A stretch of 64,000 nucleotides of DNA from Paracoccaceae bacterium (GTDB lineage: Bacteria; Pseudomonadota; Alphaproteobacteria; Rhodobacterales; Rhodobacteraceae), in the NCBI GenBank assembly GCA_030148225.1, contig JASBTX010000038.1, positions 216,434 through 280,433 on the forward strand, given 5' to 3'. Below, piece after piece: positions 33,564 to 57,838 of the stretch. A program made the translations under genes and the position numbers. Under the pieces are notes generated by a model that searched no databases, was not told where the DNA came from, and saw only the letters and a program-made list of their open reading frames with translations. The first letter of the stretch is position 1; each line of letters begins with the position of its first letter.

Positions 33564-33797
33564 ATGGCTTCAGACAAACAGAATTTGCAGGACGCATTCC
33601 TTAACCATGTCCGCAAGACCAAGGTTCCCGTCACCATATTCCTGATCAACGGTGTCAAGCTGCAGGGGGTCATCACCTGGTTTGACAATTTCTGCGTGCT
33701 GTTGCGCCGTGATGGTCAGTCGCAACTGGTCTACAAGCATGCGATTTCGACGATCATGCCGTCGCAGCCGATCAGCCTCTATGAGGGTGAAGAGTAA
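33564..33797 (+). CDS. hfq: RNA chaperone Hfq
   Basis: [60 protein letters not shown]. Confidence 0.98.
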
Positions 33798-54922: not shown

Positions 54923-56737
54923 TCAGCCCTCTTCGTACCACCAGACATCGGGCTGGAAACCCAGCCAGTCCCCATACATCGGCAGCCTGTCGGGGTATTT
55001 CAGCTCTTTGACATGGGCGATGGTCGAGATGTCGCGAAACCAGAAGGGGATCACATAGCGCCCCGAGGTCAGGACACGGTCCAGCGCCTTGGTCGCGGCC
55101 AGAAAATCCGAGCGCTCGGTCGAGGTCAGCAAAGTGTCGATCATTGCTTCTGCCGCCGGTGAATTCATCCCCATCCAGTTGCGTGTTCCCGGTGCCTCGA
55201 TCCCGTCCGATCCCCAATAGAGCTTTTGTTCATTGCCGGGCGACAGCGACAGGCCGCGCCAGTAATAGGCCATCTCGAAATCATAGACATTCGTGCGCTC
55301 TTTGTACTGGGCGCTGTCGATCATGGTGATGGTGACTTCGACGCCCAGCCGTTTGAGCGCCTCGGTATAGATCGACGATATCGTGCGGTTCTCATCGGCA
55401 CCCTGTTTCAGCAGGATTTCAAAGGCAAAGGGCGCGCCATCAGGGCCGGTCATCACCCCATCCTCTACCGTGTATCCGGCATCTTCGAACAATTTCAGTG
55501 CCTTGCGGATATTGGCGCGGTTGCCTTCGCTGCCGTCGGATACCGGCAGAACATAGCCCTCTAGCGCGCCGGGCATCAGCGTATCGCGGAACGGCTCAAG
55601 CAGTTCCCTGACCCGTCCTTCGGCAGGCCCGGGGGCCATGCCAAGCACGGAATTCGAGAAATAGGAGGTGATGCGCGGCTTTTTCCCGCCATTGACCGTC
55701 TGGTTGATGAATTCGAAATTGAACGCCGTGATCAGCGCCTCGCGCACCCGCCAGTCGGCAAATTTCGGGTTGCGGGTATTCATGACGAAACCGGCAATTC
55801 CCGAAGGCCGTTTGTGCGGGAATGTCGATTTCACCACTGCGCCGGAGCTGACCAGCGGAAAATCATAGGCGGTTTCCCACTTGGCCTCGTTGAATTCGCG
55901 ATAGGTCGTGATTTCCCCGGCCTTGAACGCCTCGAAGACGACGCCGCTATCGCCGAAATAATCATAACGGATCTCATCCAGATTGGCCTGCCCGCGCATG
56001 AAGGGCACGTCATTACCCCAGTAGTCCGGATTGCGTTTGAAAATGATGAAACGACCCGCTTCAAAACGGTCAACGACATAGGCGCCGGTGCCGATGGGCA
56101 CATCCAGCGAGCTTTCTTTGAAATCGCGGCCTTCCCATTGGGACTTCTTGAGGATGGGGCGCAACCCCATCAGAAGCGCCAGTTCCCTGTCCTCGACCGC
56201 AAAGGTGATGCGCAGGCTGCGCGGGCCGGTCTGTTCGATCGTGTCGATATTGCCCCATGAACGGGTGTAGCGGGGTGAACCTTCGGTGCCGAGTGTCCGG
56301 TAGCTCCAGATCACATCCTCGACGGTGACGGGGGAACCATCCGAGAATCGCGCCTCTTCGCGCAGGGTGAATTCAACCCAAGACCTGTCCTCGGGTGTCT
56401 CAACCGATTCGGCCAGCAACCCGTAAAGAGTGAAAGGTTCATCCCAATTACGGCCCATAAGGCTTTCATAAACATGAACTCTCACGCCCCAGGGTGCGCG
56501 GCCTTTGAGGATGTAGGGGTTGAGCGAATCATAGCTGCCACCCTCACCGATCACGATTCGTCCGCCCCTGGGCGCATCGGGGTTCACATGCGCCAGAGAC
56601 ACAAAATCGGGTGGTAGGGCGGGCTCTCCGTACATAGCTATGCCATGTTTCGGCTGCGCGATTGCCGCGCCACCCAGCGAAATCATCGCAAAAATTGCGC
56701 CTGCGCTGGCGAATTTGCGTAAAAATTCAGTTCTCAT
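54923..56737 (-). CDS. ABC transporter substrate-binding protein, family 5 (YejA-like)
   Basis: Signal peptide; HGIAMYGEPALPPDFVSLAHVNPDAPRGGRIVIG; LLAESVETPEDRSWVEFTLREEARFSDGSPVTVEDV. Confidence 0.92.
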   Translation of the reverse strand: MRTEFLRKFASAGAIFAMISLGGAAIAQPKHGIAMYGEPALPPDFVSLAHVNPDAPRGGRIVIGEGGSYDSLNPYILKGRAPWGVRVHVYESLMGRNWDEPFTLYGLLAESVETPEDRSWVEFTLREEARFSDGSPVTVEDVIWSYRTLGTEGSPRYTRSWGNIDTIEQTGPRSLRITFAVEDRELALLMGLRPILKKSQWEGRDFKESSLDVPIGTGAYVVDRFEAGRFIIFKRNPDYWGNDVPFMRGQANLDEIRYDYFGDSGVVFEAFKAGEITTYREFNEAKWETAYDFPLVSSGAVVKSTFPHKRPSGIAGFVMNTRNPKFADWRVREALITAFNFEFINQTVNGGKKPRITSYFSNSVLGMAPGPAEGRVRELLEPFRDTLMPGALEGYVLPVSDGSEGNRANIRKALKLFEDAGYTVEDGVMTGPDGAPFAFEILLKQGADENRTISSIYTEALKRLGVEVTITMIDSAQYKERTNVYDFEMAYYWRGLSLSPGNEQKLYWGSDGIEAPGTRNWMGMNSPAAEAMIDTLLTSTERSDFLAATKALDRVLTSGRYVIPFWFRDISTIAHVKELKYPDRLPMYGDWLGFQPDVWWYEEG

Positions 56738-56816
56738 TTCAGCAACAATCCCCGATCTGCCTTGTTTTCTTAATGATCAGCCTACGGGGCGTTTACAAAC
56801 AATTCAAACTTTTAGC

Positions 56817-56845
56817 TTGGACCTTTCAGGGCAAAGCTTTATAAG
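56817..56845 (+). promoter_or_regulatory. Sigma-70-type promoter TTGGAC-N17-TATAAG
   Basis: -35 at 56817-56822, 17-nt spacer, -10 at 56840-56845. Confidence 0.55.
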
Positions 56846-56851
56846 GGGGTC

Positions 56852-56927
56852 ACTGCTCGATAGGTTTCTTGCCTGTATGAAACCTGCCTCAATAACTTAA
56901 CGCCGGCTTCGTGCCGGCGTTTTTTTT
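56852..56927 (+). ncRNA. Candidate intergenic sRNA (about 75 nt)
   Basis: Downstream of the predicted promoter; hairpin AGGTTTC-N10-GAAACCT (56862-56885) then Rho-independent terminator; no plus-strand CDS served by this terminator. Confidence 0.55.
56900..56927 (+). terminator. Rho-independent terminator ACGCCGGC-TTCGT-GCCGGCGT-TTTTTTT
   Basis: Perfect 8-bp stem, 5-nt loop, and T-run. Confidence 0.88.
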
Positions 56928-57064: not shown

Positions 57065-57838
57065 ATGTCATTCGAAGGAAAAACCGCTGTTGTCACAGGC
57101 TCCAATTCCGGCATCGGTCTGGCCGCTGCCCGTGTGCTGGCCGAGAACGGCGCATCGGTCGTGCTGAATTCGTTCACCAACTCCGACGAAGATCACGCGC
57201 TCGCCGCGTCGCTGGCGAAAGAAACGGGCAGGGCAGTGCGCTATATTCAGGCCGACATGTCGCGGCCCGAAGAATGCCGCCGCCTGATTTCCGAGGCGGG
57301 GCAATGCGATATCCTTGTCAACAATGCCGGGATCCAGTTCGTGTCTCCGGTCGAGGAATTTCCGGTGGATAAATGGGATGCGATCATCGCCATCAACATG
57401 AGCGCGGCCTTTCACACGACGGCTGTTGCGCTGCCGATGATGCGCGCGGCGGGCTGGGGCCGGGTGATCAATATCGCCTCGGCACACGGGCTGCGTGCCT
57501 CGCCCTATAAATCGGCCTATGTCGCGGCCAAGCACGGCGTGATCGGCCTGACCAAGACCGTCGCGCTGGAAACTGCCGCTGAGCCCATCACCTGCAACGC
57601 GATCTGCCCGGGCTATGTCCTGACACCGATCATCGAAAAGCAGATCCCCGATCAGATGAAGACCCACAACATGGATCGCGAAACGGTGCTGCGCGATGTC
57701 ATTCTGGTCAAGCACCCTTCGCGGCAATTCGTGACGATGGAGGCGGTGACGCAGACGGTACTTTACCTGTGCTCGCCCGCGGCGGACGAGATTCGCGGCA
57801 CCTCGATCAGCCTTGATGGTGGCTGGACCGCGTCCTGA
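57065..57838 (+). CDS. bdhA: 3-hydroxybutyrate dehydrogenase (SDR)
   Basis: KTAVVTGSNSGIGLAAARVLAENGA, ILVNNAGIQFVSPVEEFPVDKWDAIIAINMSAAFHTT, INIASAHGLRASPYKSAYVAAKHGVIGLTK. Confidence 0.93.
   Translation: MSFEGKTAVVTGSNSGIGLAAARVLAENGASVVLNSFTNSDEDHALAASLAKETGRAVRYIQADMSRPEECRRLISEAGQCDILVNNAGIQFVSPVEEFPVDKWDAIIAINMSAAFHTTAVALPMMRAAGWGRVINIASAHGLRASPYKSAYVAAKHGVIGLTKTVALETAAEPITCNAICPGYVLTPIIEKQIPDQMKTHNMDRETVLRDVILVKHPSRQFVTMEAVTQTVLYLCSPAADEIRGTSISLDGGWTAS

Follow-up and report, generated by a model that had tools for sequence, protein, structure and literature searches.

The locus and its predicted transcript

The window (the whole 64,000-nt stretch of DNA that was analysed) carries, between a gene for a family 5 solute-binding protein and a bdhA-like gene, what appears from sequence comparison to be a free-standing small-RNA gene (Table 1). 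An earlier sequence-only reading of this DNA had described a TTGGAC-N17-TATAAG promoter, a 7-bp hairpin, a linker and a terminator with its T-run, and all of these were found as described. The transcript, which that reading put at about 75 nt, is predicted to run for ~76 nt from A56852 (the A of ACTGCTCG, 7 nt past the -10 element) to the end of the T-run, and the next plus-strand gene, bdhA, does begin 138 bp beyond the terminator. The predicted 5' start reads ACUGCUCG, and GGTTTCATACAGGCAAGAAACC would serve as a probe sequence for the RNA. The presence of hfq in the window was likewise confirmed; Hfq is a candidate chaperone of the small RNA, its binding to the RNA and any dependence on it being inferred.

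Table 1. Features of the predicted small-RNA gene and of the genes around it, in window coordinates
Feature	Position	Strand	Remarks
hfq	33564..33797	+	77-aa Hfq-like ORF directly upstream of hflX; recognised by sequence
Family 5 solute-binding protein gene	54923..56737	-	divergent neighbour, outside the unit; adjoins the small RNA in most of 122 loci
Upstream box CAAACTTTT	56805..56813	+	directly before the -35 element; columns -47 to -39 76-95% conserved
-35 element TTGGAC	56817..56822	+	TTG 91-100% conserved, fixed spacing
-10 element TATAAG	56840..56845	+	TATA 91-97% conserved; 17-nt spacer from the -35 element
Small RNA, ~76 nt	56852..56927	+	predicted transcript, A56852 to end of T-run
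Near-invariant 40 nt ACTGCTCGATAGGTTTCTTGCCTGTATGAAACCTGCCTCA	56852..56891	+	98-100% per column, 117 distinct loci
CTGCTCG	56853..56859	+	complementary to leader CGAGCAG; paired in most predicted duplexes
5' hairpin UAGGUUUC / GAAACCUG	56861..56886	+	8 pairs, 10-nt loop UUGCCUGUAU; arms AGGTTTC (56862-56868) and GAAACCT (56879-56885)
GGTTTCTT	56863..56870	+	predicted in many duplexes to pair with leader AAGAGAUC after hairpin opening
Main pairing segment UGCCUGUAUGAAACCUG	56870..56886	+	complementary to CAGGUUUCAUACAGGCA of the dcw leader / UpsM
Linker GCCTCAATAACTTA	56886..56899	+	between 5' hairpin and terminator
Linker part CCUCA	56887..56891	+	end of the invariant part
Intrinsic terminator	56900..56927	+	9-pair stem with changes on both sides; ACGCCGGC-TTCGT-GCCGGCGT at 56900-56920, T-run to 56927
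bdhA (3-hydroxybutyrate dehydrogenase-like SDR)	57065..57838	+	downstream neighbour, outside the unit; ATG at 57065

The small RNA folded to -29.2 kcal/mol, compared with -16.4 kcal/mol for shuffled sequences (z -4.7; 0/200 shuffles as good), and has a U-rich 3' tail. The bare consensus elements are unremarkable: the small-RNA promoter was not among the sites listed by the promoter scan, and terminator-like sites in the region were no commoner than in shuffled sequence. The unit stands above chance because it is conserved, and the claim of an orphan sRNA with its own promoter and terminator is supported on that ground, its expression being inferred in the absence of transcript data. The promoter looks like an ordinary TTG/TATAA promoter and is not recognisably of RpoH type; the RpoHII signature C-14 T-13 A-12 (PMC3441632) is not evident in it, and the matter is undecided. 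The box CAAACTTTT, found in 84 of the 118 loci of the column profile, may be a site for an activator, or a UP-like element, that controls the small RNA.

A seven-codon ORF, MKPASIT (ATG AAA CCT GCC TCA ATA ACT TAA; window 56878-56901), was considered as a peptide gene and rejected. Its stop or frame is lost in L004, L009, L013, L022 and L027, and no conserved peptide is therefore encoded.

Conservation and distribution

A covariance search against Rhodobacterales, which the sequence-only reading had proposed as a check, was run with a model built from 30 genera and found the small RNA in 159 of 159 genomes, with one strong copy apiece. Hairpin and promoter, whose absence from relatives would have counted against that reading, are conserved, and the small RNA is universal in the Rhodobacterales sampled. 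By BLAST, a 118-nt query was matched in 36/37 genomes of the same family (E 4e-13 or better), while in 24 genomes of other families it gave only short matches at chance level. In a class-wide sample of 241 genomes, strong covariance matches were confined to its three same-family genomes, and those elsewhere were weak (25-34 bits); the small RNA was thus not convincingly found in other alphaproteobacterial families. A pattern scan of named genomes matched, among others, Ruegeria, Roseobacter, Sulfitobacter, Paracoccus, Gemmobacter, Rhodovulum, Thioclava, Jannaschia and Neomegalonema.

The column profile (118 loci, 117 distinct) shows TTG at -35 to -33 and TATA at -12 to -9. Conservation begins abruptly at 56852, at a fixed distance from the conserved promoter, holds at 98-100% from +1 to +40, and then drops to 86% and 74% at +41 and +42. 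Some of the profile loci had been found with a 22-nt pattern lying inside +13 to +34, so that the profile is biased; the BLAST and covariance counts are free of that bias. Across the 30 genera the terminator stem varies by compensatory changes, with four pairs changed on both sides. Judged from these alignments, the pattern is that of an RNA gene, and the gene with its start and end is supported by comparison. In one genome, G033 (L260), which is 74% complete, no small RNA was detected; its dcw leader keeps UUUCAUACAGGCA, and the missing small RNA is probably an assembly gap.

No Rfam family reaches its threshold for the small RNA, and no description of it was found in the open literature searched, in keeping with the earlier claim that the RNA is uncharacterised. 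Supplements and subscription papers lay outside that search, so that a listing in supplementary RNA-seq data is possible. Searching text for six fragments of the RNA likewise brought up no relevant paper. The small-RNA locus could not be matched to the sRNA lists published for P. denitrificans and R. pomeroyi (PMC5107571, PMC4809877).

Relation to bdhA

The sequence-only reading had kept open the alternative that the unit is a leader attenuator of bdhA, which follows co-directionally in the window, as it does at many other loci, the usual order being solute-binding-protein gene (divergent), sRNA, bdhA. Gene order in relatives makes this highly improbable. An attenuator should be constantly linked to a co-directional downstream gene, and that is not the case: bdhA was matched in 93 of 122 loci, yet it is separable from the small RNA, lying ~0.9-2.2 kb from an intact unit in L004, L031, L079, L081, L097 and L107. 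In L002, L046, L057, L083 and L101 the unit is intact and the next gene found is convergent, and on account of such species the small RNA is not taken for a bdhA leader. The 40 nt at its 5' end are moreover invariant, whereas the DNA from the terminator to bdhA is free to vary.

A complementary site in the dcw leader and UpsM

The BLAST table of the 118-nt query contained a second recurrent match, to TGCCTGTATGAAACCTGC, at places upstream of mraZ and on the strand opposite mraZ. Because mraZ lies on the opposite strand, the shared motif is a complementarity and not a same-sense repeat: the sequence in the mraZ/dcw leader RNA is CAGGUUUCAUACAGGCA, which is complementary to the sRNA. In Rhodobacteraceae the dcw 5' UTR is 268 nt long, and its premature termination gives UpsM, an RNA of 206 nt that RNase E cuts to a 130-nt piece; UpsM is reported to be the most abundant sRNA of exponential phase, with ~1% read-through into mraZ (PMC5089854). 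This likely target, the dcw leader and UpsM, does not figure in the sequence-only reading.

A complementary leader site was present in nearly every family genome examined, and a 15-mer search allowing one mismatch mostly returned only the sRNA and the dcw leader in each family genome. A bipartite pattern, GGTTTCATACAGGC followed 18-48 nt on by GCGAGCAG, was met in 73 of 150 family genomes, and the reversed pattern, used as control, had no match. Other genomes miss the bipartite pattern by a substitution or indel, including the window's own genome, which has AGGTTTCGTACAGGC with a G-U pair. Divergent leaders (G001, G004, G011, G015, G026, G033) still have 10 nt or more of the main site, and G030 has a version of that site extended into the sRNA linker, although in all of these much of the leader is not preserved. 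The match to the sRNA is poorer in the leaders of G014 and G008, and A-C mismatches or indels occur in the leader site of G015, G023, G025, G028, G034, G076 and G117; the poorer matches and A-C mismatches weaken the case without being fatal to it.

In G029 (L258) the sRNA and the dcw leader have both drifted, and the leader sequence UUUCGAGCAU matches the changed 5' end of the sRNA. What is left of the main site is found downstream of UUUCGAGCAU there, so that the order of the two sites is reversed. The sRNA loop is altered in G017 also, and AGGTCTCAAACAGGC of that genome was tried as a compensating site and rejected: it is not next to mraZ, and the mraZ contig of G017 ends before the leader.

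Predicted pairing and structure of the target

Energies of the predicted sRNA-leader duplexes, which include long interior loops, ranged from -38 to -51 kcal/mol, against ~-31 kcal/mol for shuffled leaders (z -2.1 to -5.8), and 27 of 29 leaders did better than the 1% point (-39.1) set by 6000 unrelated windows of 210 nt taken from family DNA. The predicted duplex usually has up to three parts: CUGCUCG/CGAGCAG, GGUUUCUU/AAGAGAUC, and UUGCCUGUAUGAAACCUG with the main site. The pairing of GGTTTCTT with AAGAGAUC is, as modelled, weaker than the other two segments. In some species the leader stem carries UGAGG in its 5' strand, and the linker CCUCA may pair with it as well, an inference from cofolds obtained for some of the genomes.

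Of 35 leaders, 32 have the main site inside a stem that comprises at least 6 pairs but varies in sequence from leader to leader (examples are GAUGAGGCGGG/CCCGUUUCAUC, GAUAAGACGGG/CCCGUUUUGUC and GCGCCCGCCGG/CCGGCGGGCGCC), so that the site usually has around it a stem that stays paired as its sequence changes. The stem corresponds to R1 in the published fold of UpsM, a region whose stem is ~11 nt long. Counted 130 nt back from the terminator end, the RNase E cut lies in the 3' strand of this stem, ~5-7 nt past the main site. On cofolding, the segment was unpaired at 0.30 alone and at 0.48 in the complex. This predicted opening of the stem agrees with an exposure of the RNase E site, but it is partly forced and gives weak support only, because a nested-fold prediction has no way of holding a loop closed around an intermolecular duplex. 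On comparison of genomes the complementarity is conserved and specific, the enclosing stem is conserved, and the pairing is well supported, without binding data.

The 15-17 bp common to the two loci might instead be a DNA site for a protein, with no contact between the RNAs, and a double-stranded DNA site could stand in either orientation at each locus. This is very doubtful: the conserved stretch of the sRNA is 40 nt, a second complementary site exists in an order consistent with antiparallel pairing, the leader site sits in a conserved stem-loop, and some leader substitutions (G000, G016, G021) retain pairing by G-U.

Comparison with known RNAs

StsR (RSs0827) of R. sphaeroides is an orphan sRNA of 72 nt, transcribed from its own promoter and ended by its own terminator. 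It pairs with both UpsM and the dcw leader and promotes cleavage by RNase E (PMC8307010, PMC11354728, PMC8625941); its binding exposes a formerly double-stranded RNase E site in UpsM (PMC8307010, PMC8625941). The small RNA likewise has its own promoter and terminator and a pairing with UpsM and the dcw leader that is predicted only, and on that prediction it would work like StsR without being StsR. Identity with StsR was rejected: locus and sequence differ, and the complement of the StsR probe GGACAGTGAAGGTAGAACGG is absent. StsR is RpoHI/RpoHII-dependent, whereas the promoter of the small RNA is ordinary-looking. Cleavage of UpsM in R. sphaeroides needs RpoHI/RpoHII (PMC5089854) and this promoter is not recognisably of RpoH type, so the small RNA alone cannot explain the cleavage. 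The full StsR probe was matched in only 2 of 397 family genomes, L172 (G117) and L173 (G076), both of which also carry the small RNA, and in 4 within 2 mismatches; control of UpsM by StsR therefore looks lineage-specific.

UpsM, the predicted partner, is found throughout the Rhodobacteraceae; unlike the small RNA it has no gene of its own, being a terminated leader of 206 nt, and its sequence is complementary and not homologous to the small RNA. Among alphaproteobacterial sRNAs in Rfam, the SorX and BjrC1505 alignments show, like the small RNA, a hairpin, a CCUC-type linker and a terminator. The small RNA was nonetheless rejected as SorX, BjrC1505 or suhB/mmgR, in no case reaching the gathering score (22.3 vs 46.6, 24.8 vs 50 and 21.6 vs 41 bits, respectively). 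RNA sponges and sRNA-targeting sRNAs offer a further likeness, in that an sRNA has as its partner a second sRNA derived from an mRNA UTR; the pair described here differs from RNA sponges in general in that it can be followed through a whole bacterial order.

Proposed mechanism

The unit has the marks of a trans-encoded sRNA, namely its own promoter and an intergenic intrinsic terminator (by conservation, not by transcript mapping) and conserved complementarity to an RNA encoded elsewhere. The best explanation, and probably the right one, is that it is a trans-acting sRNA of ~76 nt, transcribed from its own promoter and universal in Rhodobacterales, that pairs with the dcw leader and UpsM, a fall in dcw output being an inferred consequence. 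The hairpin loop GCCUGUAU would act as a single-stranded toehold, pairing with AUACAGGC in the leader and UpsM, and the duplex would continue into the 3' arm of the hairpin (GAAACCU with AGGUUUC). The 5' half of the sRNA, thereby freed, could contact the further leader sites AAGAGAUC and CGAGCAG. Pairing, which in cells is itself an inference, would remodel the stem that has the RNase E cut in its 3' strand; UpsM and dcw mRNA would then be cleaved and dcw output would fall. Hfq is presumed to assist the pairing, and abundant UpsM may in turn titrate the sRNA.

The direction of the effect, with the leader opened to RNase E and dcw output lowered, is a guess by inference; an outcome like that of StsR, with the RNase E site exposed, is the simplest one by analogy. 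The opposite sign would follow if binding shielded the leader from RNase E or favoured read-through, and the duplex could protect, the site ending ~6 nt before the mapped cut. This seems unlikely but cannot be set aside, and the one precedent that has been studied, StsR acting on this leader, is a case of promoted cleavage (PMC8625941). Another logic for the same pairing is that UpsM is a sponge that keeps the sRNA from other mRNAs, effects on dcw being secondary, and this has a serious though lesser chance of being correct. It would fit the abundance of UpsM and its ~1% read-through into mraZ (PMC5089854). The sRNA is more constant than the leader site and therefore probably has further targets, as far as conservation can tell, and this too would suit a sponge; against it, neither the 5' end of the sRNA nor the 15-nt core was found to have a further long and conserved complementary site, shorter seeds being outside the search.

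On the preferred reading of a trans-acting sRNA, the predicted pairing is with the leader of the cell-division and cell-wall operon, and the small RNA would thus probably help to set the time of division. A wider proposal, put forward tentatively and at somewhat less than even chances, is that of an order-wide division riboregulator in which the sRNA invades the dcw stem-loop and sets its fate with RNase E, UpsM is a reciprocal sponge, and StsR, with its narrow distribution, is a later addition to an older circuit. Such constancy across an order is uncommon among bacterial sRNAs, as is a single target site traceable through so many genomes. If the reading is right, RNA control of the division and cell-wall cluster is general in Rhodobacterales instead of being peculiar to R. 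sphaeroides, and what the unusually long dcw leader is for can be tested directly; the small RNA would also give Rfam a new RNA family.

MraZ-box-like repeats (TTCCCA/TTTCCA) were also observed directly upstream of the dcw leader (L189, G000:C42:72000-75500), and autoregulation by MraZ close beside the sRNA site is possible.
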